A stretch of DNA of 36,969 nucleotides, from the NCBI GenBank assembly GCA_017303715.1, contig JAFLBZ010000042.1, positions 1-36,969 of the forward strand, read 5' to 3'. Position numbers and translations under genes: made by a program. How positions within the stretch are numbered: position 1 is the stretch's first letter; each line of letters starts with the position of its first letter. The notes under the pieces were generated by a model that was given only the letters and a program-made list of their open reading frames with translations, had not been told where the DNA came from and searched no databases. Positions 823-33,995 of the stretch are shown here, piece by piece. Origin of the DNA: Rhodothermia bacterium. Lineage in GTDB: Bacteria > Bacteroidota > Rhodothermia > Rhodothermales > UBA2364.

Positions 823-2724
823 ATGTCACTGACCAAAAAAAATCAGGCTCGTTCCAGCCATGCTATGCGATTGGAACGCCTGCCCGTGCTTATTTTTGAC
901 GACCCTGCACAAATGGCTCGACAGGTTGCACGCAAGGTTGCAAACCTTATCCAAGACCGCGCTGTAACGGGAAGAATGGCCGTTCTTGGACTCCCAACAG
1001 GTTCTACACCTATAGGCGTGTATCGAGAATTAGTGCGGATGCACCAAGAGGAAGGACTTGATTTCTCTAACGTGATTACGTTTAACCTCGACGAATATTT
1101 CCCGATAAAGCCCGATGCCCTCCAAAGTTATCATCGGTTCATGGAGGAAAACTTGTTCAAACATGTGAATATTCCGCGGGAACAGATCCATATCCCACGA
1201 GGAGATATTGCGCGTGAGGAAGTTGATACCCACTGCGATGAATATGAGTGGCAAATAAAAAAATCAGGTGGAATAGACCTCATGTTGCTTGGTATTGGGC
1301 GTAGCGGGCACATCGGGTTTAATGAGCCGGGTTCTCGGCGCGATGACCGGACGAGGATGGTGGTTCTGGATGAAGTGACTCGTCGAGATGCAGCCGGAGA
1401 TTTCTTTGAGGAAAAAAACGTCCCGCGTGAAGCCATTACCATGGGGGTTGGGTCCATTCTCGAATGTCGCGAAATCATCCTGATGGCTACCGGTGAGCAC
1501 AAAGCCCAGATCATCCGAAAAGCCGTGGAGGAAGAGCCAAATACCAGTGTTACCGCCTCCTTCCTGCAAGAACATACCAATTGTGCCTTTTATGTGGATC
1601 GGGCGTCGGCAAGTGAACTGACCCGCGAAAAAACACCTTGGATTGTGGGAGATGTGTCTTGGGACAATGACATGGCGCGCAAAGCGGTGGTCTGGTTGGC
1701 TAAAAAGGTGAAAAAACCCATTTTACACTTAGAAACCGCAGATTTCCACCATCACCACATGCACGATCTCGTCAATGCTTATGGCTCGACGGATGAACTG
1801 ACGTACAAAGTCTTTATGGAATTCCGAAACAGGATTAAGTACCAGCCAGAATTGCCCAAGAAAAAATCTTGTATTTGTTTTAGTCCGCACCCAGACGACG
1901 ACGTCATTTCGATGGGAGGGATGTTGGGCAAATTGGCACAAAACAAAAACGATGTTGCTGTGGCCTATATGACCAATGGCTCTGTGGCTGTTTTTGACAT
2001 GGATGTGGAACGCCACTTGCGTTTTCTGGAAATGTCGGCCAAATTACATGGAGGCTCGGATGGCGAAGAAGGAATCAAGGCTTTCACACGACCAATTTTT
2101 GAATTTATTACCCAAAAAAAACCCGGACAGATTGATACCGCCGAGGTGCAACAGCTTAAAGCCTATATCCGTTATACCGAAGCCATTGCGGGTATCGAAG
2201 TGATGGGTCTGCAGGAAAAAGATGCCCGATTCCTTGATATGCCATTCTACAAAACGGGCGAGGTGAAAAAAGCACCTATCGGAGAAGACGATGTTCAAAT
2301 TGTCTTAGACTTATTTAACGAATTAAAGCCGGATCATATCTATGTTGCTGGAGACTTGTCCGATCCGCATGGTACACACCGCATGTGCTACACGGCAATT
2401 AAACGGGCTTTAGATAAGTACAACCAACAAGAAGGGGTTAAAAAACCATTGGTTTGGCTGTATAGAGGGGCTTGGCAAGAATGGGAAATCGAAAAGGCTG
2501 ATATTTTTATGCCCATGTCTAAGGCCGACCTTTACCAAAAAATTGACGCCATTTACAAGCACGAAAGCCAAAAAGACCGGGCACTTTTCCCCGGATCGGA
2601 TGCGCGTGAGTTCTGGGAGCGGGCACGAGACCGGAACATGGGTCTTGCTCGCGAAATGGATTCACTGGGCTTGCCAGAGTTTTATGCAGCCGAGGCGTAT
2701 GTAACAACCTATGAAATGCCTTAA
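823..2724 (+). CDS. glucosamine-6-phosphate deaminase-like protein fused to a PIG-L/LmbE deacetylase domain
   Basis: The 633-aa protein joins two enzymatic folds. Residues about 15-290 are NagB-like: the sugar-phosphate loop is GLPTGSTPIGVY, and FNLDEY holds Asp90, the counterpart of E. coli NagB Asp72. Residues about 340-630 are PIG-L/LmbE-like, with His356-Pro-Asp-Asp-Asp and a second His pair in DPHGTHR (His516, His519), matching the zinc ligands of that family. Bacteroidota encode similar fusions of about 650 residues annotated as glucosamine-6-phosphate deaminase-like. NagB converts glucosamine-6-phosphate to fructose-6-phosphate plus ammonia; PIG-L enzymes remove N-acetyl groups from GlcNAc conjugates. 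Both would be cytoplasmic. Oddly, the NagB motif GVDGHxxFNEP reads GRSGHIGFNEP here, so Ser161 replaces the catalytic Asp141, while His163 and Glu168 remain. The exact reaction is therefore uncertain. An alternative start is Met15 (865). Confidence 0.9.
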   Translation: MSLTKKNQARSSHAMRLERLPVLIFDDPAQMARQVARKVANLIQDRAVTGRMAVLGLPTGSTPIGVYRELVRMHQEEGLDFSNVITFNLDEYFPIKPDALQSYHRFMEENLFKHVNIPREQIHIPRGDIAREEVDTHCDEYEWQIKKSGGIDLMLLGIGRSGHIGFNEPGSRRDDRTRMVVLDEVTRRDAAGDFFEEKNVPREAITMGVGSILECREIILMATGEHKAQIIRKAVEEEPNTSVTASFLQEHTNCAFYVDRASASELTREKTPWIVGDVSWDNDMARKAVVWLAKKVKKPILHLETADFHHHHMHDLVNAYGSTDELTYKVFMEFRNRIKYQPELPKKKSCICFSPHPDDDVISMGGMLGKLAQNKNDVAVAYMTNGSVAVFDMDVERHLRFLEMSAKLHGGSDGEEGIKAFTRPIFEFITQKKPGQIDTAEVQQLKAYIRYTEAIAGIEVMGLQEKDARFLDMPFYKTGEVKKAPIGEDDVQIVLDLFNELKPDHIYVAGDLSDPHGTHRMCYTAIKRALDKYNQQEGVKKPLVWLYRGAWQEWEIEKADIFMPMSKADLYQKIDAIYKHESQKDRALFPGSDAREFWERARDRNMGLAREMDSLGLPEFYAAEAYVTTYEMP

Positions 2725-2795: not shown

Positions 2796-3112
2796 GAAAA
2801 AGTTAATTTGATTATCCAAAAAAACAGGATCATCCTCAAGCTCATATTGAACCCACATAGATGAAAAATAATTAAACCAAGTACTGGAAGTCTAATAAAA
2901 ACAAATCATTCTGTAAGACTGTTTCGATGTCGCATTTTTGGGGAGGGCAAAAAAACCACATCATGAAAAAACAACGTGGCCTTCGTACATAAAAAAAGCG
3001 CTTGCGGTACGGGGTTAAAATTGGTACTATTCCCCAAAGCAGTGGTGCTTTTTCGCTATGAGTCATTTTGGTTATGAACTTTTTCTCTTCTCCCGATAAA
3101 ACCCGATCAAAC
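2796..3112. other. intergenic leader region before the first TonB-dependent receptor
   Basis: This stretch of about 317 bases holds no convincing gene. It is AT-rich and contains a nine-codon open frame (2963-2992, MKKQRGLRT) that is too short to judge. A widely spaced AAAAAGC/GCTTTTT pair lies around 2993-3053. It probably carries the promoter and 5' leader of the receptor gene, but I could not identify a clear promoter. Confidence 0.4.
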
Positions 3113-6100
3113 ATGAAACGCAAATGCTGGAGTATTCTGCTTTTGCTTGTGCTGTGCATGAGTACGGCTTGGGCACAAAGTGGAAAAATTGCTGGACGGG
3201 TAACGGATGCCGCATCAGGACTGGGCTTGCCCGGTGTTACGTTGCAGGTACTCGGAACCACACAAGGCAATGTGTCGGACGTGGAGGGCTACTTCTCCAT
3301 TATCAATGTCCGACCCGGAACTTATACGGTGCGCGTCTCCTTTGTTGGATACGAAACCGTCAATGTGAGTGACGTGCGGGTAAGTACAAACCTTACGACC
3401 CCGCTCAATGTGCAACTAAAAGAAGAAAGTACGCTAACGGAAGTCACCGTTATTGCCGAGCGTCCTGTTGTGCAAAAAGACGTTTCCAACTCTACTGCCA
3501 GTATTGGGGCGCAAGAAGTGGCACGGCTTCCTGTGGCCTCCGTAACCGGTGCGGTGGGATTGCAGGCTGGTATCCAAGGGTTATCCTTTCGGGGTTCCGG
3601 TTCCGATGAATTGTCCTTCAACGTCAACGGGCTTACGCTACGAGACGAACGGGACAACTCGCCGATTACCAATATCCCGCTTTCATCGGTCGAGGAAATT
3701 CAAGTCCAAACTGGGGGCTTTAATGCCGAGTATGGCAACGTGCGTTCTGGGGTGGTCAACGTCATTACCAAAGAAGGAAAACGGGATCGCTACGAAGCCA
3801 ATATCAATATCCGTTATAGCCCCCCCGCCCAGAAAAACATCGGGCCAGCAGCGAACGACATAGACTCTTACTGGATTCGTCGTTTTGTTGATCCAACCGT
3901 GGCCATGACGGGTACGGGTTCTTGGGATCAGGCCACACGAGACCAATTTGGCACGTTTGAGGGCTGGATTGCGGTTGCCGAAAAGCGCTTAAAAGACGAT
4001 GACCCAACAAACGACATGACGCCAGAAGCGCTCCAAAAAGCATTTCTGTGGCAACATCGCAAAAACATGCAGATCAATCGTCCTGATTATAACGTGGATT
4101 TTGGATTTGGTGGGCCGGTTCCGGGCTTGAATAAACTCGGAAATACCCGTTTTTATGCTTCCTTTATCCAAAACCAAGACATGTACATGATTCCATTGAA
4201 CACCGATCGTTATCGAGACTATAACGGCCACGTCAAGATTACTTCCGATGTAGCAAAGGGCATGAAGTTCTCGGTTGAAGGGATGATGGGACGCCAAAGC
4301 GGAACCACTGCCAGCCGTTCGGGTGGACCGGGATTCTTTAGGTCAGCCTCCGGTATTGCGAGCAATTTAACCAGTGTAAGTTTTATTGACTCTCGGATTT
4401 TCTCACAAGATTATTGGAATCCGAGTGAAGTAAACAGCAAAATGTTTGGTGCGACGTTTAACCATGCGCTAAATGGAAAAAGCTATTACGAACTACAAGC
4501 GGCTTATTTAGCCACAGAATACGATACCGTCCCCGGCGAAGGCCGAGACCTGACAACCCAGCAAACCTTTGGCGGTGTTGGATTTGACGAAGCGCCTTAT
4601 GGCTTTATGCCCAATCCATCAAACGGGGTGGACGGAATGCGGATGGGCGTAGGGATGTCCAATTCCCGCGATTCCAGTTTTGTTGGGGTGTTTAACCTCA
4701 AAGGGAATTACACCAATCAACTAAACCGCTTCTTGCAACTCCGTACAGGTTTTGAGTTTAACAGAAGCAACACCAAAGTGAATTACGGCAACTTTGACTC
4801 CTATTTACCTTCTAGTAATTCACAGTCCAAGTGGGATCGTTCGCCCAATCGTGGTGCTGTTTTTGCGCAAACGAAGTTAGAATTTAATGGCATGGTGGCC
4901 AATTTGGGCTTACGGGCAGATTATTTCCATGCGGGTGGTGATTGGTACGTCTTAGACCCCTTCTCGAATGCGTTATCCTCAAAAGGCTCTGCTGGTCTAG
5001 AACAAGAGGAAAAAGCAGCGACCAAGAAAATCCTTGAGTTTAGCCCGAGAATTGGGGTATCTTTTCCCGTAACCACCCTTTCAAAATTGTACTTCAACTA
5101 CGGGCATTTCCGTTCGATGCCGGCGCCGGAGAATTTGTTCTTGGTACGTTATGCAACCACCACTGGACAAATTACACGGATCGCGAATCCGAATAATCCG
5201 CTCCCCAAAACTGTTGCATACGAATTGGGTTACGAACAATCGGTAGCCGAGCAGTTCTTGATCCGGATTGCTGGATATTACAAAGATGTGTCCCTCCAAC
5301 CGTATTTGGTGAACTACGTCTCTAAGACCAATACGGTTAATTACACCACTTCTGAGCCTAATCTCTACGAGGATATTCGTGGTTTTGAGGTGACGTTGTC
5401 GCGGAATCGTGGCTGGATACAAGGCTTCGTGAACTTTACCTACATGGTGAACTCTTCGGGGTATTTTGGCTATGGAACGGTATATCAGAACCCACAAGCG
5501 ATGCGGAACTACATCAACGACGATGCGGTACGACGCGCCGCACAATCGAAACCGCAGCCTTATCCTTATGGTCGCTTAAATATTGACCTCATCTCGCCGG
5601 ATGAATGGGGGCCAGCTGTAGGCAAAATGCACCCATTAGGTGGTTGGAAAACCAGCGTTATTGTATCGTGGCAAGATGGCGGAAAAGCGACATGGGTAGG
5701 GGGTGGCTCTAAACCGGGGGTAGAACGGAACGTGGATGTGGTGGACTTTTGGAACATGAACCTGCGTTTTGCAAAGTCTTTCTATATCGGAAAACGGGGC
5801 GTTGAGTTCTTCGCCGATGTTTACAATGTGCTTAATGCAAAGCGATTGTCTGCCTATGGTTATTTCGATGGTGTGGATATCAACAAGTACCGTTTATCAC
5901 TCCACCTTCCTGAATCGCCGGACTATCCAAACATCCCCGGTAGTGATAAATTTGGAACCTATCGCAAGCCAGATGTTCCTTACCAACCTACGACTGGTAT
6001 TCAAAACCGCACGGGCGTTAAAGCCTCAAGCGACGTCTTGTATTATGAGTTTGATACGAAGTCCTATATCCAATACCAAAATGGACAATGGGTAGATGCG

Positions 6101-6220
6101 GATAAGACATTTGTTGATACCGTCCTCAAAGAAAAACGCTACATAGACATGCCAAACCAAGCGTTTCTAAACTTCTTGGATCCACGCGATTTTTGGTTTG
6201 GACTGCGGATAAAGTTGTGA
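3113..6220 (+). CDS. TonB-dependent outer-membrane receptor with carboxypeptidase-regulatory-like domain (cassette 1)
   Basis: From the ATG at 3113 the protein has 1035 residues and opens with a clear signal peptide (MKRKCWSILLLLVLCMSTAWA). A TTG start at 3068 would add 15 residues before the signal, so 3113 is preferred. Residues about 24-110 form a CarboxypepD_reg-like beta-sandwich (GKIAGRVTDAASG...SFVGYET). The plug domain follows (FNVNGLTLRDE, FNAEYGNVRSGVVNVITKEG). The rest is a 22-strand-type barrel rich in aromatic alternation and ending FWFGLRIKL. Such receptors import large ligands using TonB energy. No SusD gene follows; instead come an exported protein and a PorV paralogue. The substrate is unknown. 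It closely resembles the receptor at 28020-30665 in domain order. Confidence 0.93.
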   Translation: MKRKCWSILLLLVLCMSTAWAQSGKIAGRVTDAASGLGLPGVTLQVLGTTQGNVSDVEGYFSIINVRPGTYTVRVSFVGYETVNVSDVRVSTNLTTPLNVQLKEESTLTEVTVIAERPVVQKDVSNSTASIGAQEVARLPVASVTGAVGLQAGIQGLSFRGSGSDELSFNVNGLTLRDERDNSPITNIPLSSVEEIQVQTGGFNAEYGNVRSGVVNVITKEGKRDRYEANINIRYSPPAQKNIGPAANDIDSYWIRRFVDPTVAMTGTGSWDQATRDQFGTFEGWIAVAEKRLKDDDPTNDMTPEALQKAFLWQHRKNMQINRPDYNVDFGFGGPVPGLNKLGNTRFYASFIQNQDMYMIPLNTDRYRDYNGHVKITSDVAKGMKFSVEGMMGRQSGTTASRSGGPGFFRSASGIASNLTSVSFIDSRIFSQDYWNPSEVNSKMFGATFNHALNGKSYYELQAAYLATEYDTVPGEGRDLTTQQTFGGVGFDEAPYGFMPNPSNGVDGMRMGVGMSNSRDSSFVGVFNLKGNYTNQLNRFLQLRTGFEFNRSNTKVNYGNFDSYLPSSNSQSKWDRSPNRGAVFAQTKLEFNGMVANLGLRADYFHAGGDWYVLDPFSNALSSKGSAGLEQEEKAATKKILEFSPRIGVSFPVTTLSKLYFNYGHFRSMPAPENLFLVRYATTTGQITRIANPNNPLPKTVAYELGYEQSVAEQFLIRIAGYYKDVSLQPYLVNYVSKTNTVNYTTSEPNLYEDIRGFEVTLSRNRGWIQGFVNFTYMVNSSGYFGYGTVYQNPQAMRNYINDDAVRRAAQSKPQPYPYGRLNIDLISPDEWGPAVGKMHPLGGWKTSVIVSWQDGGKATWVGGGSKPGVERNVDVVDFWNMNLRFAKSFYIGKRGVEFFADVYNVLNAKRLSAYGYFDGVDINKYRLSLHLPESPDYPNIPGSDKFGTYRKPDVPYQPTTGIQNRTGVKASSDVLYYEFDTKSYIQYQNGQWVDADKTFVDTVLKEKRYIDMPNQAFLNFLDPRDFWFGLRIKL

Positions 6221-6233
6221 GACCCTTATGCCT

Positions 6234-6249
6234 TTCTACTTTGGTAGAA
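6234..6249 (+). promoter_or_regulatory. short hairpin between receptor and exoprotein genes
   Basis: TTCTAC (6234-6239) and GTAGAA (6244-6249) form a perfect six-base stem with a four-base loop. It lies just after the receptor stop codon and about 40 bases before the next start. There is no T-run, so it is more likely an RNA processing or stability element than a terminator. The second cassette has a hairpin at the same place. Confidence 0.4.
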
Positions 6250-6286
6250 TAGGAACTGATTGATTCATCTTTAGGCGAAAATTTTT

Positions 6287-8377
6287 ATGCGTAAGTATTT
6301 TAAACTCCTGCCTTTATGCTTGCTGGCGGTAGGAGCTTTCCAGATAACAAAAGCTCAGTTTACCAATAAATGGCTTTCTGCGGGTAGCTTCCATAACTGG
6401 TATTCCGAAGTAGGGAACCAAGTTGAATCTGCCGGTTTTGTTAAAACACAGCAAGATGGCTGGCGCTGGCCCGGAATTTACCGCTTTACCGACATGCAGG
6501 CCGCACGTGGTATGTGGATTGGGGCCAAAAATGTGACTGACGACAGAGGTACAAATTTCGATACCCGTGTGGTACATATTGGGCCGCGTGTAAGTGGTGC
6601 AAATGAGTTCTTTCCGGTTTCCTTTAAACTGGTTAGCCGTTTTGAACTTCCGTCCGTCTTCGTGGATGGGGATCCGTCGGAGCCAGAAGCGGCGATGATT
6701 GTTGATGAAGTGAACCCAAATTTGGATGCCGATTTTGCGATAGAAAACGAGGTGAATAACCTGCTCGGCCTTACCATGAAACGTCGGATTTTGCAGTTCT
6801 CGCAGGAATTTAATGACAATTACCATGTTCAGGAATACACCTTCACGAATACAGGTAATACGGATGGTGATGCAGATATAGAACTCCCGAACCACACGTT
6901 AACAGATGTTATGGTGTATTTCCAAAACCGGATGGCAGTCTCAAAAGAAACCCGATATGTGGTTGGTAATGGCTCTGGATGGGGGATGAATACCATGATT
7001 GATGCGCGGGGAGATGGCTTGCGCCCAGACCCACCCGGTCAAAACTTCCGCGCACAATTTGTTTGGCATGGCAAATTTCCAGCCTTTACGCGATATGACA
7101 ATATTGGTGGCCCTATCTTGAAGTCTGTATTGCCCGCGCTTCAGATTGCATCCGCCGATACCTTAGGTCGCCTGGGGGCGTCTCAATTCGCGGGAATCGT
7201 CGTGCTTCATGCGGATAAATCTGCCTCGGACAAAACGGATGACACAAACCAGCCGTTTACCATGAACTACATCGGATCGGACGATAACTACCAGTCTCGG
7301 AACGATGCGTTTAACGTTGCACAGATGGAGACCGAATACCGTCTGATGACCCAAGGCAAAAGACCAAGACATGCTTACATTGTAGAACCAACCGGAGATC
7401 CCGGATTCAAAGCCCCGACCGGAGATCCAGCTTTGGGAACTTCTGGTGGATATAGCAATGGGATGGGCTTTGGGCCTTATACCTTAAAGCCCGGAGAAAG
7501 CATAAAAATCGTTCTGGCCGATGCTGCTGCGGGGCTGAGCCGAGAGGAAAATATCCGAGTGGGCCGCTTGTTACAGCGCGGACAGATCAGCGTTGCGCAA
7601 AAAAATGACATCGTTTTCCAAGGCCGCGATTCGTTGTTCCAAACCTTCCGACGTGCCATCGAAAATTACAAAAGTGGTTATAAAGCACCTAAAGCACCTT
7701 TACCGCCTAAACAGTTGGAGGTGAAGTCTGGTGGTGATCGTATTCAAATCTCATGGACGCCTTTTGCCGGTGCTTCAGTAGATGGCTGGGAGGTATATCG
7801 TGCCAAAAACAGCTACGACTCTACCTATACCATGATTAAACGCCTGGGTGCAAATGAAACGAGTTTCGATGACACGACTCCCATTCGTGGTTTAGACTAT
7901 TATTATTACGTCCAAGGGTATTTGGACAAATCCAAGAATACCGGAGGTCCGGGAACGCCTGCAAACCGCGTCCTTAGAAGTAGCCGATACTTCGCACAGT
8001 CCTATGCGCCTGCTCGTCTCAAGCGGCCTGCCGGAAGTGCGTGGGACGGCGTAAGGATTGTGCCAAACCCTTATACCATTGCAGCCGGAACAGACCTGCG
8101 CTTCTCGCAACGGGATAAATTGGGATTCTTCGATGTCCCCGGTCTTTGCAGTATTGAAATCTATACCGAGTTGGGCGAATTGGTGGATAAATTTGAACAC
8201 ACCGATGGCTCCGGAGATGCCTATTGGGATCACACCACTTCCTCCCGACAATTGGTAGTGTCTGGCATCTATATTGCCGTCATTACAGCAAACGAAGACC
8301 AGACCAATAAGACAACGGGCGCGATAGAATTCCGAAAGGGTGAGCGCAAAATCATGAAATTCGTCGTTATCCGATAA
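6287..8377 (+). CDS. secreted exoprotein with Fn3-like domain and T9SS-like C-terminal tail (cassette 1)
   Basis: The 696-aa protein begins with a signal peptide cleaved near KAQFTNKW. Residues about 25-470 form a large domain I do not recognise from any named family. Its core (GLTMKRRILQFSQEFNDNY, then YTFTNTGN, from about residue 159) also appears in the exoprotein at 30717-33920. Residues about 473-565 look like an Fn3 domain (ISWTPFAGASVDGWEVYRAK). The last 105 residues begin with VPNPY (Pro593-Tyr596) and end KIMKFVVIR, which fits a T9SS-type sorting and anchoring tail. I infer that it is exported through the T9SS to the cell surface and works with the adjacent receptor. Its biochemical function is unknown. 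Confidence 0.8.
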   Translation: MRKYFKLLPLCLLAVGAFQITKAQFTNKWLSAGSFHNWYSEVGNQVESAGFVKTQQDGWRWPGIYRFTDMQAARGMWIGAKNVTDDRGTNFDTRVVHIGPRVSGANEFFPVSFKLVSRFELPSVFVDGDPSEPEAAMIVDEVNPNLDADFAIENEVNNLLGLTMKRRILQFSQEFNDNYHVQEYTFTNTGNTDGDADIELPNHTLTDVMVYFQNRMAVSKETRYVVGNGSGWGMNTMIDARGDGLRPDPPGQNFRAQFVWHGKFPAFTRYDNIGGPILKSVLPALQIASADTLGRLGASQFAGIVVLHADKSASDKTDDTNQPFTMNYIGSDDNYQSRNDAFNVAQMETEYRLMTQGKRPRHAYIVEPTGDPGFKAPTGDPALGTSGGYSNGMGFGPYTLKPGESIKIVLADAAAGLSREENIRVGRLLQRGQISVAQKNDIVFQGRDSLFQTFRRAIENYKSGYKAPKAPLPPKQLEVKSGGDRIQISWTPFAGASVDGWEVYRAKNSYDSTYTMIKRLGANETSFDDTTPIRGLDYYYYVQGYLDKSKNTGGPGTPANRVLRSSRYFAQSYAPARLKRPAGSAWDGVRIVPNPYTIAAGTDLRFSQRDKLGFFDVPGLCSIEIYTELGELVDKFEHTDGSGDAYWDHTTSSRQLVVSGIYIAVITANEDQTNKTTGAIEFRKGERKIMKFVVIR

Positions 8378-8461
8378 CCATTTAAACATCAGAGGAAAGA
8401 CATGAAGACAACTGATGCACCCAAATGGTACGTTCGGAGCGGCCATGTTTTGGGGAATACC

Positions 8462-9469
8462 ATGAAAATGATTAAGATTTCTGCCTTTCTGTTGCTCTGG
8501 ATGCCTGTAATCTTGGTAGCGCAGAAAGACAATCAGCAAAAATTAGCCCAAACCGGTATGAAGTTTTTGGCCGCCTCGCCCGATCCGCGTGCAGCTGGTT
8601 TGGGGGATGCCATGACGGCACTGGAAGGCGGTGCGGAAATGATGTTTTATAACCCCGCTGGTATGGCAAACATGGACGGCAAATTTAGTGCCTCATTTGG
8701 GCAAATGGCATGGATTGCCGATATCAAGTACAACTTGGCCGGTGCAGCTTTTAAGGCCGGAAATATTGGTACTTTCGGGGTAAATGTGATGAATGTAGAT
8801 TATGGCGAAATACAAGCAACCGTTCGGGCAGACAACGAACGGGGATATTTGGACTTGCCCAATAGCATACACCCTGTAGCGATGGCGGTGGGTGTAAGCT
8901 ATGCACGCGCTTTGTCCGACCGGTTTGCGATCGGAGGGAGCGTGAAGCGGGTAATGCAAGACCTTGGGAGTGCTGCAACCACCTTCGATAAAAGTATAAG
9001 TGATTATGTTTATGAGTCTTATAAGCAAACTGTAATGGCTTATGACTTTGGGGTTTTGTATAAAACGGGCTTCAAAAGCCTGCAATTCGCCTTTAATGCG
9101 CGTAATTTTGCAAAGGAAATCAAGTACGAGGAAGAAACTTTCCAATTGCCCTTAACCATGCGAATGGGAATTTCGATGGATTTGATGGACTTTTCCTCGA
9201 TGGGCAGAGATCACAACCTCTTGCTCTCTGTTGATGCCGAGCACCCGCGCGATTTCGCCGAAGTTATTAAATTGGGAACGGAATACTCCTTCCGGAACTT
9301 GCTTTCATTACGTGCCGGTTATGCGTTCCCGTCCGATCAACAGGGCCTCACCTTTGGCGGTGGGATTCAGGTGAAGCGTGGTGAGCGGAAAGTTCAGGCA
9401 GATTATTCGTACACCCAATTTGGGGTATTCAACGCCGTTCAGCGGATCGGTATTAAAATTGGACTCTAA
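8462..9469 (+). CDS. PorV/PorQ-family outer-membrane protein (cassette 1)
   Basis: The product has a signal peptide (MKMIKISAFLLLWMPVILVAQ), then the family hallmark stretch LAASPDPRAAGLGDAMTAL followed by MMFYNPAGMANM. It continues as an alternating beta-barrel ending in IGIKIGL. PorV proteins bind T9SS cargo tails as they leave the translocon and carry them to the attachment complex; family members are FadL-like barrels. With the start at 8462 the length is 335 residues, identical to the cassette 2 paralogue. An upstream ATG at 8402 has a good AGAGGAAAG ribosome site and would add 20 residues before the signal peptide, so it cannot be excluded. Its place directly after a T9SS-tailed exoprotein suggests a cargo-specific shuttle, which is inference. 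Confidence 0.85.
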   Translation: MKMIKISAFLLLWMPVILVAQKDNQQKLAQTGMKFLAASPDPRAAGLGDAMTALEGGAEMMFYNPAGMANMDGKFSASFGQMAWIADIKYNLAGAAFKAGNIGTFGVNVMNVDYGEIQATVRADNERGYLDLPNSIHPVAMAVGVSYARALSDRFAIGGSVKRVMQDLGSAATTFDKSISDYVYESYKQTVMAYDFGVLYKTGFKSLQFAFNARNFAKEIKYEEETFQLPLTMRMGISMDLMDFSSMGRDHNLLLSVDAEHPRDFAEVIKLGTEYSFRNLLSLRAGYAFPSDQQGLTFGGGIQVKRGERKVQADYSYTQFGVFNAVQRIGIKIGL

Positions 9470-9523
9470 CGGCTGTTTACGGCCATCCTTGTGATGCCGG
9501 AGCGCTATCAAGCCTATACTGAC

Positions 9524-10849
9524 ATGAAGCACATACAACGAAATTTTTACTTTTTCGCAATCTGGGCACTTCTTTGGGCTGGATGCGATTTCAGCGGCGA
9601 CAACTCGCTGTTTAATGAAGACAACCTAACATCGGACGCAGATCCGGTCGTCACCAGTATCACCAGTGCAGAGGCTCCGCCTTTTGCCGGTATTGACGTG
9701 CTCACGATTAAAGGGAGCAACTTTTCTGCCGATCCAGCTAAAAATATGGTCTATGTGACATTTTATTTGCCAGCGGTGGATGCTGCCGGAAATATCGTTA
9801 CAACCAGTGGGAAGCCCGATAGAGGAAAAGTACGGGATGCCATTCGGGCAACGGTGCTCACCGCCTCGGCTACGCAACTGACCATTCAAGCCCCGTTACG
9901 CCCCACCTTCGATGCAAAAGACCCGAAAACCCGTCCTTTGGAAGAGGTGGATATCCGGGTCGCAACATTGGGGGCGGAGAATTTTTCTGCCGTAACCAAA
10001 ATGATACTTGCTCCTTCCTTTGAGCCAGTAACGACGTTCGACACAAAGACGGACGAGCCTTTTGGGATGACCAATGACAAAAACAACAATATTTATGTTT
10101 CGCTTTTTGTAAGCGGTAGTGCGGCCGGGGTCTTTACCTATGCGCCCGATGGAACCCGAACTCCATTCCTTACAGCGGCTAATGTTCAAAGCCAAAAGTT
10201 TGATGACATGCAATACCGCGACGACGAGGCGTACCTTTATGCTGTTCGTGGCTTGCGGGCCGTCTTCCGGTTCAAGAAAAACAGCAACCAAGAAACATAT
10301 GTTGCCATCCCTACAACGTTGGAGTCTGCTCGCTTGGTGACGTTAGACTTTGACGGCAACAATAACCTATGGCTAGGGGGGAACAATGCAAACTTGTATC
10401 GCATAAAGCCAGACAAAACCACTAAAAACTATGCCTTTGTTGCAGATGTGCGCTCGGTTCGGGTTTCTGGCTCTAATTTGTTTGTATTGGCCAAAAAAGA
10501 CAACCAATTTAGCATCTTTCGTTTCCCCATAGATGCCAATAGCGATTTAGGGACACCCGTAAAAGTGGCCGACCTGAACTTAGGAACCAATGAGGCTTTT
10601 GCAATTGATCTGGCAAAAAATGGCGATATATTTGTTGCGACAAACCGTAATCCGGATCCATTGATGATCGTGAGTAATGGCCAAGTTTCTACCCTCTATC
10701 CGGGCGCTTTTGTTGGAATGGCGCGTTCCTTTGCTTGGGGTGCGGATCCAATCCTGTATGTGGGACAAGGGGTTCTGCCCTTGGGCACGGCTACGTCTAT
10801 TGCGGCAAATTTCTTAATGCTCAATACGCGAAGAGAAGGCGTGCGTTAA
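9524..10849 (+). CDS. surface lipoprotein with IPT/TIG-like domain and predicted beta-propeller
   Basis: From the ATG at 9524 the protein has 441 residues and a lipobox LLWAGC with Cys21 as the lipidated residue. A longer reading from 9491 would add 11 unneeded residues. Residues about 41-170 resemble an IPT/TIG immunoglobulin-like domain (VVTSITSAEAPPFAGIDVLTIKGSNFS). The rest shows repeated short motifs such as FGMTNDKNNNIYVSLF, LDFDGNNNLWLGG and IDLAKNGDIFVATN, typical of NHL/SMP-30-like propellers. It is 54 bases after the PorV-family gene and is probably the last gene of cassette 1. In Bacteroidota polysaccharide loci, IPT-containing lipoproteins bind glycans at the cell surface; a similar ligand-binding role is plausible but unproven. 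Cassette 2 has no counterpart. Confidence 0.75.
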   Translation: MKHIQRNFYFFAIWALLWAGCDFSGDNSLFNEDNLTSDADPVVTSITSAEAPPFAGIDVLTIKGSNFSADPAKNMVYVTFYLPAVDAAGNIVTTSGKPDRGKVRDAIRATVLTASATQLTIQAPLRPTFDAKDPKTRPLEEVDIRVATLGAENFSAVTKMILAPSFEPVTTFDTKTDEPFGMTNDKNNNIYVSLFVSGSAAGVFTYAPDGTRTPFLTAANVQSQKFDDMQYRDDEAYLYAVRGLRAVFRFKKNSNQETYVAIPTTLESARLVTLDFDGNNNLWLGGNNANLYRIKPDKTTKNYAFVADVRSVRVSGSNLFVLAKKDNQFSIFRFPIDANSDLGTPVKVADLNLGTNEAFAIDLAKNGDIFVATNRNPDPLMIVSNGQVSTLYPGAFVGMARSFAWGADPILYVGQGVLPLGTATSIAANFLMLNTRREGVR

Positions 10850-15011: not shown

Positions 15012-16934
15012 TTAGTTCTTGCTCTTCCAAGCATCGTTTGTCCGATTTTGGTCGGGCAAAATTTTATCTGGATCCACTTGCACTTTGAGTACTTTACCTT
15101 TAACGGGCAAAGTCTTTGTAAAGGTATCGCCCATGTGCCAAATGGCCTCAGGTAGGTTTACACGCTCTTTGGTATTGTTCTGATAGGTGATTTCGAGTAC
15201 CTGTGGCATGTTCATGGGTTTGACCTTCTTGAGCGTTACGGTGATTTCGCCGCTGCCAACTTCCACATTTTGGATACCAACATCATAGCGATCGTTGGAG
15301 TAGAACCACGTTCGCCAGAACCAAGAGAGGTCTTCGCCGGAGACATCCTCAATGGTTCGGAAAAAGTCTTGTGGTTGTGGATGTTTAAACTTCCATCGGT
15401 CGGTATAGGTACGGAAGGCGGCATCAAATGAAGCAGACCCCAAAATATATTCTCGTAGCAGAACAAGTCCGTAAGCAGGTTTATAATACGCCAATAATCC
15501 AAGCGCCTCTGGGACGGTATGATCCGGTATGGTGGTTAAAGGCTGATCCCAATAACTCATTTGGCTATAAAATGTAATCTGTTCTGAGGTTTCTTGCCAG
15601 AAGGCTTTTGGTTCTTTTTTGTAATACGTCAGGGTTGCATAGAAATTGATGAACGTATTAAACCCTTCGTCCATCCATGCGTGACGTCGCTCATCCGAGC
15701 CAACAATCATCGGATACCACGAGTGGCCAAATTCATGGTCTGTAACGCCAAAAAGACTTTCGCCACGATCGCCAACGGCACAGAAAATAATCATGGGGTA
15801 TTCCATCCCACCAACGACGCCCGCCACATTTGTCATCGAGGGGTATGGATACTTCAACCATCTTGTGGAGTATTCTTGGAGCGAATGGGCCAACATCTGT
15901 GTGGATTCTTCCCAGCCCGGATTCTCCTTGCTTCCCAACCCTTCTTTGGGATAGGCGGAGGCGAGCCAAACACCATCTACAGTTGCGGCATCCCAGATAA
16001 AAGAGGTAGAGGCGGCCCAAGCGACATCGCGGACGTTCTCCGATTTAAACTTCCAGACCAAAGTGCTTCGCCCTTGAGGACGGCTTACGGGCTTACCGAC
16101 TTCGTCTGGTTTAACGATGACTACGGTTGAGGACGAATTTTTGGCTTGGTTATACCGTTGTAATTGGGTTGGCGTTAATACGGATTCGGGGTTGAGCAAA
16201 CTACCAGAAGCCACGACAATCATATTGGAAGGCGCTGTGATTTCAAGGTCGTAATTGCCATAGTCTAAATAAAATTCGCCTTGTCCCAGATAAGGCATGG
16301 TATTCCAACCATCGGATGCGTCATACACACACATGCGGGGATACCATTGCGCCAATTGGTAAACAATACCTTGCTCGGCCTCGAAGCGGCCCATGCGGTC
16401 TGCGCCATATTCTGGAATCACGAACGACCATTCCATATCCAATTGTATGGTTCCGCCTTTTGCTGCCAAAGGGGTATCTAAATCAACCCGTAGTCGGGTA
16501 TCGTTTAGCATGGTTTTGGGCGTGTAGCGTTTTCCGTTCATCATAACCGAAAGAGCAGGGAGGTCTAAGCCGCCATCTGCAAATCCTCCACGCCAGCGCG
16601 AGTTTGGAGGTTGTTTCATTTGGCCGTCACTGGTTGGTTTAAAGAGATTCTGCTCCATATGAAGCCATAAGAATGGCAGTTCGTCCGGCGAATTATTGGT
16701 ATATATAATCGTTTGTTTGCCTCGGATGGTATGGGCTTCGGGCGTTAAACTTACCTTAATTTGATAGGACGCTGTATTTTGCCAATAATCTACACCGGGT
16801 GCCCCAGAACCAGTTCTAACCCGATCGGCAGGCGGGAAAGGTAAGGGAGCAAATTGATTATGGTTGGGTTTTTGAGCCATTATATTTCCGGCAAAAAATC
16901 CGACCAAGAGGAAGAAGCGAATGGTTTTAAACAT
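15012..16934 (-). CDS. secreted M1-family zinc metallopeptidase
   Basis: The 640-aa protein has a signal peptide (MFKTIRFFLLVGFFAGNIMAQ) and the gluzincin motif His400-Glu401-Phe-Gly-His404, with the third zinc ligand Glu423 in WMDEGFN, exactly the HExxH-x18-E spacing of M1 peptidases. GGMEYPM replaces the GAMEN exopeptidase motif, as in many bacterial M1 relatives. The N-terminal third is the beta-sandwich typical of the family (YQIKVSLTPEAHTIRGKQTI). It should cleave N-terminal residues from peptides outside the cytoplasm. The C-terminus ends in a lysine- and asparagine-rich stretch without a T9SS tail, so a periplasmic location is likelier than surface attachment. It is the last gene of the minus-strand block, 292 bases after the desulfurase. 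Confidence 0.92.
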   Translation of the reverse strand: MFKTIRFFLLVGFFAGNIMAQKPNHNQFAPLPFPPADRVRTGSGAPGVDYWQNTASYQIKVSLTPEAHTIRGKQTIIYTNNSPDELPFLWLHMEQNLFKPTSDGQMKQPPNSRWRGGFADGGLDLPALSVMMNGKRYTPKTMLNDTRLRVDLDTPLAAKGGTIQLDMEWSFVIPEYGADRMGRFEAEQGIVYQLAQWYPRMCVYDASDGWNTMPYLGQGEFYLDYGNYDLEITAPSNMIVVASGSLLNPESVLTPTQLQRYNQAKNSSSTVVIVKPDEVGKPVSRPQGRSTLVWKFKSENVRDVAWAASTSFIWDAATVDGVWLASAYPKEGLGSKENPGWEESTQMLAHSLQEYSTRWLKYPYPSMTNVAGVVGGMEYPMIIFCAVGDRGESLFGVTDHEFGHSWYPMIVGSDERRHAWMDEGFNTFINFYATLTYYKKEPKAFWQETSEQITFYSQMSYWDQPLTTIPDHTVPEALGLLAYYKPAYGLVLLREYILGSASFDAAFRTYTDRWKFKHPQPQDFFRTIEDVSGEDLSWFWRTWFYSNDRYDVGIQNVEVGSGEITVTLKKVKPMNMPQVLEITYQNNTKERVNLPEAIWHMGDTFTKTLPVKGKVLKVQVDPDKILPDQNRTNDAWKSKN

Positions 16935-17040
16935 GTCAGAACGGTTGAGTTGTAAACAGTAAATATGCTATAAAATACGTCAACGCTCACGCTATCTGTT
17001 TTATTGGAAAAAAAATCTTGTAACCCACATGGTGTGATCA

Positions 17041-17073
17041 TTCAGGGATAGAGCCTTCTTTTTCTGCCCTGAA
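17041..17073. repeat. 7-bp inverted repeat in the desulfurase-peptidase gap
   Basis: TTCAGGG (17041-17047) and CCCTGAA (17067-17073) are perfect inverted copies with a 19-base spacer. It lies upstream of the M1 peptidase on the minus strand and could be an operator. There is no T-run to make it a terminator. Confidence 0.35.
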
Positions 17074-17160
17074 GTGCAGGCAAAAATACGATTTAGGGGT
17101 TGTCCAAAAGCCGTTCTAAAGAAAAAATAAGCGATAACACTTTTTACACAACTCCGACAT

Positions 17161-17225
17161 TTTCAGAAAGATACATGGTTGTACGTGACAACTCGTAGAT
17201 TACTTTTTGGTTCATGTATCTGAAA
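17161..17225. repeat. bulged 13-bp inverted repeat immediately after the cysteine desulfurase gene
   Basis: The right arm 17213-17225 (CATGTATCTGAAA) is matched by the left arm 17161-17177, which reads the same complement with four extra bases. The 35-base interior contains a further small hairpin, GTTGT/ACAAC at 17178-17192. The element starts one base after the stop codon. It lacks a T-run, so it resembles a 3' stability structure or a small palindromic repeat more than a classical terminator. Confidence 0.5.
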
Positions 17226-17226
17226 T

Positions 17227-18402
17227 TCATCGCCCTTTTCGGCTAATGCGGTTTAGGATCTGTACAAGCGCAGCGGTAGCCACTTCTATATCCTTGGATG
17301 ATGTGTGTTTTCCCATAGAAAAACGAACGGTTGCCGAAGCGGTTTTGTCAGGGACGCCCATGGCACGCAGGACATGACTGGGTTCTACGGCTCCACTCGT
17401 ACAAGCAGACCCGCTGGAGACCATACATCCGGCCAAATCCATATTGAGCAAGAGCATTTCCCCATCAATGGCTTCATGTCCAATGGGCGGGAAGGAGATG
17501 TTCAGGATATGGGGCGAGGTTGGTGTTCCCTCCTGCGGTGTATTCCAAATAAAGCGTCCGCTAAGGTGTTGTAAAAGGGTTTCGATCAACTGCGCTTTAA
17601 GGGAAGATAGGTGGTTTAGGTGTTGATTTGCATCTGCGAAGAACTGTTCAAATGCCGTCACGAGTCCAATAATTTGAGCGACGGCTTCCGTTCCGCCACG
17701 CCGCTTTCTTTCCTGTGTACCGCCTTCTATTTGTGCGTGCAGATCGGTTCCAGCACGTACATACAATGCACCAGTTCCTTTTGGGCCATAGACTTTATGG
17801 GCAGAAAAGGAACAAAAATCCATGCCCAATTCCTCCATTTGTGGTCGGAAGAGTGCCGCTTGAACCGCATCGCTGTGGTATAAAACACCATTATTCTGAC
17901 AGATCGCAGCAATTTCCCGTATGGGTGAGATGGTTCCAACCTCGTTGTTCACATACATCACGGAGACCAAACGGGTGTTGGGCTTTAGGGCATCTTGAAC
18001 TTTTTTTGGTGTGACGGATCCGGTGGAAGTGGGTGTAAGGAAGGTAACCTCAACCCCTTGTTTTTGTAGGTTTTTAGCGGGTTCAAGAATCGCCTCATGT
18101 TCTGCTAACGTGGTAATAAAATGATCCCCCGGCCTTAAGACGCCCTTCAAGACCAAATTGTTCGACTCGGTAGCGCCGCTGGTAAAAACGACCTCGCTTT
18201 CTTCTGCCCCGATAAGTTGGGCAAACCGCTGACGAGCTTCTTCAAGGGCATACCGTGCTTCCCGCCCTAATCGGTGTACAGATGACGCATTGCCAAAATC
18301 CGTGGTTAGATAAGGCATCATGGCCTCTAATATGGCGGGATCTAAGGGCGTGGTGGCCGCATAATCAAGGTACACTGACATAGAAGCTGTTTTTTGGTGC
18401 AT
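17227..18402 (-). CDS. cysteine desulfurase, NifS/IscS family
   Basis: The 391-aa protein shows the class V aminotransferase features: the N-terminal YLDYAATTPLDP, the PLP lysine Lys203 in SAHKVYGPKG and the active-site Cys334 in SSGSACTSG. It removes sulfur from cysteine to give alanine and an enzyme-bound persulfide used for Fe-S clusters and tRNA thiolation. Its ATG overlaps the stop codon of serS in TAATG, indicating translational coupling; Met8 is an alternative start. No iscU, sufU or mnmA gene is adjacent, so the sulfur acceptor cannot be named. The serS neighbour makes a tRNA-modification role imaginable, but this is speculation. Confidence 0.93.
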   Translation of the reverse strand: MHQKTASMSVYLDYAATTPLDPAILEAMMPYLTTDFGNASSVHRLGREARYALEEARQRFAQLIGAEESEVVFTSGATESNNLVLKGVLRPGDHFITTLAEHEAILEPAKNLQKQGVEVTFLTPTSTGSVTPKKVQDALKPNTRLVSVMYVNNEVGTISPIREIAAICQNNGVLYHSDAVQAALFRPQMEELGMDFCSFSAHKVYGPKGTGALYVRAGTDLHAQIEGGTQERKRRGGTEAVAQIIGLVTAFEQFFADANQHLNHLSSLKAQLIETLLQHLSGRFIWNTPQEGTPTSPHILNISFPPIGHEAIDGEMLLLNMDLAGCMVSSGSACTSGAVEPSHVLRAMGVPDKTASATVRFSMGKHTSSKDIEVATAALVQILNRISRKGR

Positions 18403-28019: not shown

Positions 28020-30665
28020 ATGAAAAGATTGTTGGTGTTGGTTTTTGTCCTGCTGCCTTCTTTTTTAGTAGCCCAAACCACCGGAAAAATTGCAGGGCGG
28101 GTTGTGGATGCCGCAACTGGTGCAGGTATTCCCGGCGCAAATATTGTGATTTTAGGAACACCGCGAGGCGCCGCCTCCGATTTGGATGGGAATTATTTCA
28201 TCCTGAACATCGAACCTGGTGTTTATACCGTGATCGCCTCCTTTGTAGGGTATGAGACCAAACGGGTAGAAGGCGTTCGGGTGGGGGTAGATAGAACAGC
28301 AACGGTCAACTTTTCCATGGCGGAAGACAATGCACTCTCGCAGGAAGTGGTGATTCAGGCAAATAAAACCTTAGTAGAAGTGGATAGAACATCTTCTTCT
28401 GCAAAAATTGGAGGCGAGCAAATTTCCTCGTTACCGGTAGATAGTTTCCTCGAAACGATTGGCCTTCAAGCGGGGGTGACAAAAGGAGCCGGTGGCGAAC
28501 TTCACATTCGGGGGGGGCGCTCTTCCGAGGTGAAGTATTATGTGGACGGCGTGGCCATCTCTAACCCCTTTAACAATAGTATGGCTTCGCCCGTTGAAAA
28601 CTCGGCGGTTCAGGAAGTAGAGGTGATTAGTGGGACGTTCAATGCGGAATATGGACAAGCCAACTCCGGTATTGTGAACGTCGTCACAAAATCTGGTAGC
28701 GATACCTTTACTGGTTCGTTTAACCTTAGCGGAGGTGGATATTTCTCGACAAGAGAAACCGTATTCCCAGATATTCGCTCGGCTAATCCAATCGGGCAAA
28801 AACGCTTCGAGGGTTCGATATCAGGTCCCACAGGGGTTAAAAACCTTACGTTTTTCCTGAATACGGGTTGGACGGATTACCAAAACTACCTGGGAGGCCG
28901 TCGGGTCTTTGTACCATCGGATTCGTCTAATTTCTCTGGGCGTCCAGAGTCGTGGCGGATTCAGGCTTCTGGGGATTCGGCCTATGTGCCGATGAACCCG
29001 ACAAGTGGTCTTACGAACCTGCTAAAACTTACGTTCCAAGCCTCTAAAAACATTAAAATCTCCTATTCGGCTTCGCGAAATTGGTACAAGAGTCAATCTT
29101 ATAGCCATTTTTACCGGCTTAATCCCGATGCCCGCCCGACGCTTCGTAGCCAGAGTTACAACCACTTGCTGGTGTGGAACCAAGTTTTGAACCCCAGAAC
29201 CTTTTTTAACATTCGGCTAACATACTATACCACCGAGTTAAGCCAATTTGTTTATGAAGACCCCAAAGATGAGCGCTACCAATACATCTACGGTCGGGGA
29301 ATCCAACCTGCGAATGTGTTTAGTACTGGCGGTGTAGAGCGGGGGCACATCCATCGAGACAGTGATACCTATGCTGCACGATTCGACATTACCCGTCAGG
29401 TTGGACAAAACCATTTGATGAAGGCTGGAGTTGAGTACCGCTATAACCGCATGTTTAGCGATGAATTTCAGCTTTTGGTTGATCCACGACAATTTGGAAC
29501 ATTAGAGCCACAAATTCCAGACCTTAGCTCTACGCTCCACAACCAATACACCCGAAATCCAGTAGAAGCGGCACTCTTCGTACAGGACAAAATCGAAATC
29601 AAAGACCTGATCGTGAATGTGGGCCTTCGGTACGACTATTTTGATCCCAATGCCAAAGTACCAACGGATATGCAAGACCCACAAAATAGGTTGCGACCAC
29701 GTCCCGAAGCAGAGGCATACCGTGATGCCAGCATCAAAATGCAGATTAGTCCACGTTTAGGATTTGCATTTCCGATCACTGAAACAGGGGTTATTCATGC
29801 CAGTTATGGCCACTTTTTCCAAATTCCAGAGTATGGACGAATGTATGAGAACCCCGACTTTAAGGTGACCTTGGGGAATTTTAATACGTTTATGGGAAAT
29901 GCAGACTTAGAGCCACAACGTTCCACCATTTATGAATTAGGGCTTCAACAACAGTTAGGCCGAGTGATTGCAATAGACGTCACGGCCTATTATCGGGACG
30001 TACGAAACCTCATCGGTGCAAAACTTTACCGGACTTATACAGGATCGGACAGCTACGGGCGGTACGAAAATACCGACTTCGGCGCTGTGAGGGGCTTTAC
30101 CACCTCGCTACAATTGGTGATCCCGGAGGCCGGTATTCGGGGTGGGCTAAATTATACCTACCAGTCTGCACGTGGTAATGCAAGCGATCCAAGACAAGCG
30201 TTCTATGATGCGCAAGGGAACAACGAAGCGGCCCGCTCGCTGATTCCACTCGATTGGGACTTGCAGCACAGCCTAAATGCAGATTTGACATGGAATATGG
30301 ACGGATGGTCAGCCGGAATCATCGGTGAATACAAGTCGGGCTATCCGTTTACACCCACCGACGTCCAACGTAATCCGATCGTTGAAGAACGAAATGGCGC
30401 GCGTTACCAACCCGAATTTCGGATAGACCTGCGTGCTGGCCGAAACTTTAACATTGGTAATGTGCGGGCACAGCTTTTCTTATTTGCAGATAATCTCTTA
30501 GATGCCTACCGGTCAGATCGGTATCCGCGCCTATTTCAGTCCGAGATAGACGCCCATCGTGCGAATGGATTAGAAATGATCAATACCCTTAAAGCATTTC
30601 GGACAAATCCAGCCGTTCAGCCTTCACCAAGAATGGTGCGGCTTGGCATGATGTTCGACTTCTAA
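28020..30665 (+). CDS. TonB-dependent outer-membrane receptor with carboxypeptidase-regulatory-like domain (cassette 2)
   Basis: The 881-aa protein has a signal peptide (MKRLLVLVFVLLPSFLVAQ). A CarboxypepD_reg-like domain follows at residues about 20-105 (GKIAGRVVDAATGAGIPG, SFVGYETKRVEG). The plug carries IRGGRSSEVKYYVDGV and FNAEYGQANSGIVNVVTKSG. The barrel ends in RLGMMFDF, the terminal-aromatic signal expected for outer-membrane insertion. The first 100 residues are clearly related to those of the receptor at 3113-6220, but the barrel is about 150 residues shorter, which suggests a different ligand. No SusD gene follows. The next two genes are an exoprotein and a PorV-family protein, the same order as in cassette 1. 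Confidence 0.94.
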   Translation: MKRLLVLVFVLLPSFLVAQTTGKIAGRVVDAATGAGIPGANIVILGTPRGAASDLDGNYFILNIEPGVYTVIASFVGYETKRVEGVRVGVDRTATVNFSMAEDNALSQEVVIQANKTLVEVDRTSSSAKIGGEQISSLPVDSFLETIGLQAGVTKGAGGELHIRGGRSSEVKYYVDGVAISNPFNNSMASPVENSAVQEVEVISGTFNAEYGQANSGIVNVVTKSGSDTFTGSFNLSGGGYFSTRETVFPDIRSANPIGQKRFEGSISGPTGVKNLTFFLNTGWTDYQNYLGGRRVFVPSDSSNFSGRPESWRIQASGDSAYVPMNPTSGLTNLLKLTFQASKNIKISYSASRNWYKSQSYSHFYRLNPDARPTLRSQSYNHLLVWNQVLNPRTFFNIRLTYYTTELSQFVYEDPKDERYQYIYGRGIQPANVFSTGGVERGHIHRDSDTYAARFDITRQVGQNHLMKAGVEYRYNRMFSDEFQLLVDPRQFGTLEPQIPDLSSTLHNQYTRNPVEAALFVQDKIEIKDLIVNVGLRYDYFDPNAKVPTDMQDPQNRLRPRPEAEAYRDASIKMQISPRLGFAFPITETGVIHASYGHFFQIPEYGRMYENPDFKVTLGNFNTFMGNADLEPQRSTIYELGLQQQLGRVIAIDVTAYYRDVRNLIGAKLYRTYTGSDSYGRYENTDFGAVRGFTTSLQLVIPEAGIRGGLNYTYQSARGNASDPRQAFYDAQGNNEAARSLIPLDWDLQHSLNADLTWNMDGWSAGIIGEYKSGYPFTPTDVQRNPIVEERNGARYQPEFRIDLRAGRNFNIGNVRAQLFLFADNLLDAYRSDRYPRLFQSEIDAHRANGLEMINTLKAFRTNPAVQPSPRMVRLGMMFDF

Positions 30666-30672
30666 GACATAA

Positions 30673-30688
30673 GGGTCTTGGATGACCC
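30673..30688 (+). promoter_or_regulatory. short hairpin between receptor and exoprotein genes (cassette 2)
   Basis: GGGTC (30673-30677) and GACCC (30684-30688) form a perfect stem around a six-base loop, eight bases after the receptor stop codon. No T-run follows. It occupies the same position as the hairpin at 6234-6249 in cassette 1. Confidence 0.4.
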
Positions 30689-30716
30689 ATTTCTATAACT
30701 AAAGAATTGGATAGAG

Positions 30717-33920: not shown

Positions 33921-33939
33921 CCTTTAACGTGCTCGGCGA

Positions 33940-33983
33940 ACAGTAATGTTTATGCAACAATACAGTAATGTTTATGCAACAAT
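33940..33983 (+). repeat. perfect 22-bp tandem duplication before the cassette 2 porV-like gene
   Basis: Two identical 22-base units occupy 33940-33961 and 33962-33983. Each contains AATGTTTATGCAACAA. The duplication falls in the 75-base gap between the exoprotein stop and the PorV-family start. Confidence 0.9.
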
Positions 33984-33993
33984 AAGGATATAA
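33946..33993 (+). other. possible 15-codon leader ORF ending two bases before the porV-like start
   Basis: ATG at 33946 opens a short frame (MFMQQYSNVYATIRI) whose TAA stop at 33991-33993 is two bases upstream of the ATG at 33996. The close spacing would allow translational coupling. The second repeat unit carries its own ATG at 33968 in another frame, stopping after five codons. There is no evidence that either is translated. Confidence 0.3.
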
Positions 33994-33995
33994 TC

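Follow-up and report, generated by a model that had tools for sequence, protein, structure and literature searches.

A fused NagB–PIG-L protein of the Rhodothermales as a candidate bifunctional GlcNAc-6-P deacetylase and GlcN-6-P deaminase

The window (the whole stretch of DNA that was analyzed, 36,969 nucleotides from a Rhodothermia bacterium) encodes a protein, P0001, in which a NagB-like deaminase is joined to a PIG-L/LmbE-type deacetylase, and in which a serine occupies the position of Asp141 of E. coli NagB, a residue that presumably has a catalytic role. The locus raises the questions of whether the deaminase half still acts on GlcN-6-P and which substrate the deacetylase half might supply to it. 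The coding features are as follows.

823..2724, + strand: NagB–PIG-L fusion gene P0001, a single open frame of 633 codons plus stop
880..1626, + strand: NagB-like deaminase half, residues 20–268 (PF01182; TIGR00502; VIA-align Z 38.1 to 2bkv_B, model residues 20–267)
1627..1854, + strand: helical linker, residues 269–344 (AlphaFold2 model)
1855..2721, + strand: PIG-L/LmbE-type deacetylase half, residues 345–633 (PF02585; VIA-align to BshB 6p2t and to 3wl3)

Architecture and family of the fusion protein

Profile searches of P0001 returned a Pfam Glucosamine_iso match over residues 27–249 (90.7 bits) and a Pfam PIG-L match over residues 352–529 (67.5 bits), and its AlphaFold2 model had a mean pLDDT of 92.3 and a pTM of 0.86. 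The protein passed the NagB equivalog model TIGR00502 (259.8 bits versus a cut-off of 236.9), and no match to TIGR00221 (NagA) was present among its NCBIfam hits at E 0.001. It also belongs to NCBIfam NF002557/PRK02122, “glucosamine-6-phosphate deaminase-like protein” (residues 5–631, 923.8 bits, cut-off 384), with which it shares the same two-domain architecture over 627 of its 633 residues and from which nothing notable differs. Since this family of NagB–PIG-L fusions is already catalogued, P0001 is not the first of its kind and its membership is not new. No assay of any such fusion was found in the accessible part of the open-licence literature searched, and by that literature the function proposed below is putative. 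The nearest named relatives among the matches listed were Rubrivirga and Rhodothermales MAGs, and the assignment to the order is based on them.

For residue counts, at least 237 fusion frames among the matches listed were reduced to 233 distinct rows. The named loci (at least 80) had been found by PIG-L motif patterns, so that motif counts within them are biased; 79 of 80 are represented by a separate row, the exception being L111, which is identical to L031. The 154 other rows were not selected on the PIG-L motif.

The deaminase half and residue 161

The residues of the deaminase half that bear on its activity are located as follows.

1090..1092, + strand: Asp90, equivalent to E. coli Asp72; Asp in 224/233 fusions
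1300..1305, + strand: Arg160-Ser161; Ser161 equivalent to E. coli Asp141, Arg160 to S. mutans Arg127
1309..1326, + strand: His163 to Glu168, equivalent to E. coli His143 to Glu148; His in 231/233 and Glu in 233/233 fusions
1501..1503, + strand: Lys227, equivalent to E. coli Lys208; Lys in 233/233 fusions

Alignment to E. coli NagB (b0678) paired Asp72 with Asp90, Asp141 with Ser161, His143 with His163, Glu148 with Glu168 and Lys208 with Lys227, which confirmed the first four of these assignments as made in the initial annotation and left Asp72, His143, Glu148 and Lys208 all with equivalents in P0001. The same annotation held that Asp141 had been lost. The site is indeed a serine, but the wording misleads, since Asp occurs there in just one of the 233 distinct fusions; the remainder carry Thr (155), Ser (39), Asn (35), Val (2) or Arg (1). 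Ser or Thr, whose fixation at this site the initial annotation proposed to check, is thus present in 194 of the 233. This pattern is not chance, and to judge from the alignment Ser161 is an ordinary state of the fusion family; when 28 complete fusions were taken from the sampled genomes of the same order, the residue was Ser in 26 and Thr in 2. The preceding site, 160, was Arg or Lys in 201/233 fusions.

Deaminases outside the family also do without this aspartate. Asn stands at the Asp141 site in the B. subtilis enzyme (PDB 2bkv/2bkx, titled “Structure and kinetics of a monomeric glucosamine-6-phosphate deaminase”) and in that of S. mutans (2ri0/2ri1, the title of 2ri1 including “with GlcN6P”). 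In 26 separate NagB proteins of the same phylum, of which 20 were picked by hand rather than at random and 6 came from family f7 (L250 being left out), the site was Asn in 19 and Asp in 7. These observations do not support the earlier view that Ser161 points away from GlcN-6-P deamination. We likewise rejected Ser161 as the sign of a dead deaminase, since Ser, Thr or Asn is usual in the fusions and Asn is found in the B. subtilis and S. mutans enzymes; whether a NagB is active cannot be read from its residue at the Asp141 position, and a false alarm is thereby removed. Solved deaminases of other bacteria do without the “missing” residue too, so both halves of the fusion are probably still active. 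In E. coli NagB, Asp141 and Glu148 are listed among the residues that bind the allosteric activator in the consulted portion of PMC4281351.

Structural comparison supported membership of the NagB fold, the best fit of the P0001 model being to B. subtilis NagB 2bkv (Z 38.1, 1.0 Å over 242 residues, 39% identity). P0001 shares with this monomeric enzyme the Arg before the Asp141 site, the equivalents of Asp72, His143, Glu148 and Lys208, and a Val at the Lys160 position, but differs from it in having Ser rather than Asn, in lacking an Arg172 equivalent and in being fused to PIG-L. With the hexameric, allosteric E. coli NagB it shares 37% identity over 251 residues (1dea) and Asp72, His143, Glu148, Lys208, Tyr121, Ser151 and Arg158, whereas Asp141, Lys160 and Arg172 of that enzyme are not kept. 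A simulation study of S. mutans NagB gives, in the part available, Ser37, Thr38, Arg127, His130 and Lys194 as GlcN6P contacts (PMC8369159), and in our alignment these map to Ser61, Thr62, Arg160, His163 and Lys227 of P0001. A loosened form of this five-contact set was conserved in 187/233 fusions.

The regulation of the deaminase half may differ from that of E. coli NagB. According to the excerpt consulted of PMC4008608, Lys160 pairs with Glu148 in the T state and is part of the allosteric network; its equivalent is Val180 in P0001, and in each of the 233 fusions the site holds Ile, Val or some other residue that is not basic. Two members of the E. coli allosteric network, Asp141 and Lys160, are represented by Ser161 and Val180. 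The fused NagB is thus probably, although not certainly, without E. coli-type allostery, since the listed allosteric residues Tyr121, Ser151 and Arg158 are kept in P0001 and in 226, 228 and 233 of the 233 fusions, respectively.

The equivalent of E. coli Arg172 in the lid has been lost as well, a change that tells more than Ser161 does: the site was Arg in 0/233 fusions in one alignment and in 2/66 in another. In E. coli NagB we take this arginine to contact the phosphate of the substrate, and the change at the lid site is perhaps a clue to specificity. The site (residues 192–193, window positions 1396–1401) is Asp in 165/233 fusions in the first of these alignments. Sequence and fold both give good support to the predicted step of GlcN-6-P deamination.

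The deacetylase half

Two motifs define the putative active site of the PIG-L half, with the roles in the first assigned as in the part of PMC4101496 consulted.

1888..1902, + strand: HPDDD, residues 356–360; metal ligands His356 and Asp359, general base Asp358
2368..2379, + strand: His516-Gly-Thr-His519; His519 third metal ligand, His516 equivalent to MshB His144 (fusion alignment)

His356, Asp358, Asp359 and His519 make up the HXD1D2 + H motif in the form given in the consulted text of PMC4101496, and the initial annotation was right that the metal motifs, HPDDD (356–360) and the distal His519, are kept in P0001. Across the fusions, His356 and Asp359 were each found in 233/233 rows, His519 in 231/233 and His516 in 230/233, and Asp358 in 150 of the 154 rows not selected on the PIG-L motif. 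Thr518 (window positions 2374–2376), which lies at the position of MshB Asp146, is invariant (233/233).

The fold of this half resembles that of PIG-L/LmbE deacetylases, with a VIA-align Z of 22.5 to BshB 6p2t and 21.2 to diacetylchitobiose deacetylase 3wl3; for BshB, MshB and diacetylchitobiose deacetylase together, which share the HXDD + H motif and the fold with P0001, the Z scores ranged from 17.6 to 22.5. The hydratase GalB (5cgz) shares the fold as well (Z 21.3), so the fold alone neither proves deacetylation nor names the reaction. P0001 differs from the PIG-L/LmbE enzymes in its fusion to a deaminase and in the distance between the metal-binding Asp and His, which is 160 residues between Asp359 and His519 and 97–148 in the enzymes of the accessible part of PMC4101496. 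It also has Thr518 where MshB has Asp146, a residue whose change to Ala left at most 1% activity according to the same partial source. In the main text of this review, which covers PIG-L/LmbE enzymes, no phosphosugar is named as a substrate, and a term search there found none of “GlcNAc-6”, “phosphate” and “NagA”. NagA itself (TIGR00221) is an amidohydrolase of an unrelated family; what it has in common with the fusion is the proposed reaction only, a likeness of function.

Pathway genes, residue losses and alternative readings

We consider it fairly probable that P0001 is a bifunctional enzyme, with a GlcNAc-6-P deacetylase in its PIG-L half and a GlcN-6-P deaminase in its NagB half. Elsewhere, GlcNAc-6-P deacetylation is the job of NagA. 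In the proposed scheme, the protein would be cytoplasmic; GlcNAc-6-P could be supplied from MurNAc-6-P via MurQ and from GlcNAc via a kinase of presumed specificity; the C-terminal half would remove the acetyl group from this phosphorylated substrate; and the N-terminal half, with Ser, Thr or Asn at the Asp141 site, would convert the resulting GlcN-6-P to fructose-6-phosphate and ammonia, possibly after a hand-over between the halves. Part of the initial annotation survives here, in that a deacetylase feeding the deaminase is a supported inference; the unusual amino sugar that it envisaged appears less likely than the route from GlcNAc-6-P through GlcN-6-P to Fru-6-P.

The gene content of the genome is consistent with this scheme. 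The fusion is its single PF01182 protein, in a search that leaves out SIS-type deaminases (NagB-II), and no NagA exceeded the TIGR00221 cut-off (best E 6.1e-7). MurQ is present (386 bits), together with one BadF-type kinase-family protein, three ROK-family proteins and two GH20 hexosaminidases. The genome encodes five PIG-L proteins, the fusion included, and any of the other four could be the deacetylase instead. In the 30 sampled genomes of the order, NagA (counted here and in the comparisons below at E below 1e-48) was found in 0, MurQ in 30 and the fusion in 29; in 74 genomes of the class the corresponding numbers were 4, 74 and 61. The sampled genomes of the order thus present an annotation gap, all having MurQ and none a recognizable NagA, to which the fusion gives a testable answer, and the fusion (or its two-frame form in one genome) is the leading candidate for GlcNAc-6-P breakdown in the order. 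That form occurs in G215, the order member without a fusion, where a 265-aa NagB-like frame is followed by a 306-aa PIG-L frame (L290, G215:C39:14500-20000, about 16177–17855, minus strand). The two stop-to-stop frames lie on the same strand, overlap by a few codons and keep the catalytic residues, with the linker largely missing; an assembly error is possible.

Across the 296 genomes of the phylum comparison, a NagA-like gene (by the same threshold; of 50 that passed it, 42 also exceeded the curated cut-off) was present in 29/120 genomes with the fusion versus 17/25 with a separate NagB only (Fisher p 6.8e-5, kinship not controlled; G215 excluded and counted in neither group). The fusion was absent from 71 of the 161 genomes with MurQ but without NagA. 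A rule by which MurQ without NagA demands the fusion was rejected on these 71 genomes, and the fusion is neither confined to NagA-less genomes nor the sole answer to the missing NagA.

Natural losses of catalytic residues provided further evidence on the reaction. Asp72 of the fused NagB is replaced by Ala, Ser or Asn in all seven sampled fusions of family f7, which belongs to the same order, and all seven genomes hold a separate NagB, with catalytic residues kept in the six that were aligned. Six of these fusions (L239–L242, L244 and L246) have intact PIG-L motifs; the seventh, L243 of genome G242, is cut by a contig end to 294 residues and lies outside the 233 rows. Both fusions of family f45 (L025 and L069) have lost Asp72 and His143 with PIG-L motifs intact, and each of the two genomes also encodes an intact NagB as a separate protein. 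Loss of the fused Asp72 was therefore accompanied by a separate NagB in 9/9 genomes checked, which suggests that the two proteins perform the same reaction. L080, from a named Rhodothermales MAG, is a tenth fusion without Asp72, outside the nine genomes checked, and its PIG-L motifs are intact. In the other half, the base Asp358 is lost from four copies of family f14 (L070, L233, L234 and L236; HPADD for HPDDD), two of which also lack His519. All four genomes hold another, intact fusion, and two of them (G167 and G199) also have a NagA-like gene; one f14 genome shares an identical fusion with a Balneolaceae MAG. The aligned copies suggest that losses at fused sites come with backup, in few independent events. 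G146, which has no NagA and in whose one fusion Asn stands at His516, does not fit this pattern.

A different division of labor seems to us unlikely. In it, the NagB half would be a standard GlcN-6-P deaminase, the PIG-L half would act like archaeal Dac and remove the acetyl group from GlcNAc or chitobiose that carries no phosphate, and a kinase would then make GlcN-6-P. This reading would account for the Dac enzymes among the nearest folds (Z 21.2) and could draw on the ROK-family, BadF-family and GH20 proteins of the genome, but it would leave the GlcNAc-6-P that MurQ yields in 30/30 genomes of the order without a known deacetylase there. An alternative role for the NagB half, as a regulatory or structural domain that senses GlcN-6-P or GlcNAc-6-P beside a PIG-L half that alone is catalytic, would suit the two lineages that lack Asp72, one of them also His143, beside an intact PIG-L half; we judge it quite improbable, given Asp72 in 224/233 fusions and a genome with no other PF01182 protein. 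Highly improbable, in our estimation, is the idea put forward in the initial annotation, that the NagB half, having lost Asp141, takes as its substrate some other amino sugar, freed by the deacetylase. A specificity change would be possible given that Arg is absent or rare at the Arg172 lid site, depending on the alignment, but Asp141 is equally absent from the B. subtilis and S. mutans enzymes and from 19 of the 26 chosen separate NagBs, the S. mutans GlcN6P contacts have equivalents in P0001, and the separate NagBs that accompany loss of the fused Asp72 suggest an unchanged reaction.

For the bifunctional GlcNAc-6-P reading, a wider form can be stated, which we hold to be about evenly balanced: that the PIG-L half is a true GlcNAc-6-P deacetylase replacing NagA, that one polypeptide runs the whole branch from GlcNAc-6-P to fructose-6-P in Rhodothermales and relatives, that the two sites have decayed reciprocally where copies are duplicated or backed up, and that one lineage has two adjacent genes instead. 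If true, a phosphosugar reaction of central metabolism would join the repertoire of the PIG-L superfamily, and the pathway would be complete in many seemingly NagA-less genomes. Published genetics counts against the proposed function in one case: in the consulted part of PMC5127042, deletion of F. johnsoniae nagB (Fjoh_4557, fusion status not established) left chitin utilization unaffected and the protein was not expressible, and the authors cite three more nagB-like genes in that organism. The accessible portions of PMC5583593 and PMC10434189 gave no decisive evidence either way; the latter lists BT0258 as an iron-responsive deaminase gene.

The neighborhood of the fusion gene varies and gives mild support to an amino-sugar role. 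Of 100 related loci, 5 had MurQ no more than about 1.3 kb from the fusion, and 9 contained relatives of the BadF-type kinase of the P0001 genome. In G049 and G186 the distance to MurQ is about 0.7 kb, with both genes on one strand. Support is only mild since other frame groups are at least as frequent, among them one that includes a beta-lactamase-domain member (10 loci), GHL10 (9), the larger of two TonB-receptor groups (8; the other has 4 besides the window) and a beta-eliminating lyase (6). Smaller groups include oxidoreductase, sodium-symporter, NagK-like and NagX-like ones (4 each), the NagX-like and NagK-like matches being below their curated cut-offs. Most groups were annotated from one or two members, many loci are truncated, and a group present in 15 loci was taken as frames opposite the fusion gene. 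The gene downstream in the window is context and not part of the enzyme.

3068..6220, + strand: TonB-dependent receptor gene (CarbopepD_reg_2 and Plug)

TonB-receptor-related frames were found in 4/100 related loci besides the window. The window itself contains two similar modules (positions 3068–10849 and 28020–35003), each comprising a TonB-dependent-receptor-like protein, a large protein and a PorV-family protein; the large protein, of 696 or 1067 aa, has no Pfam match.
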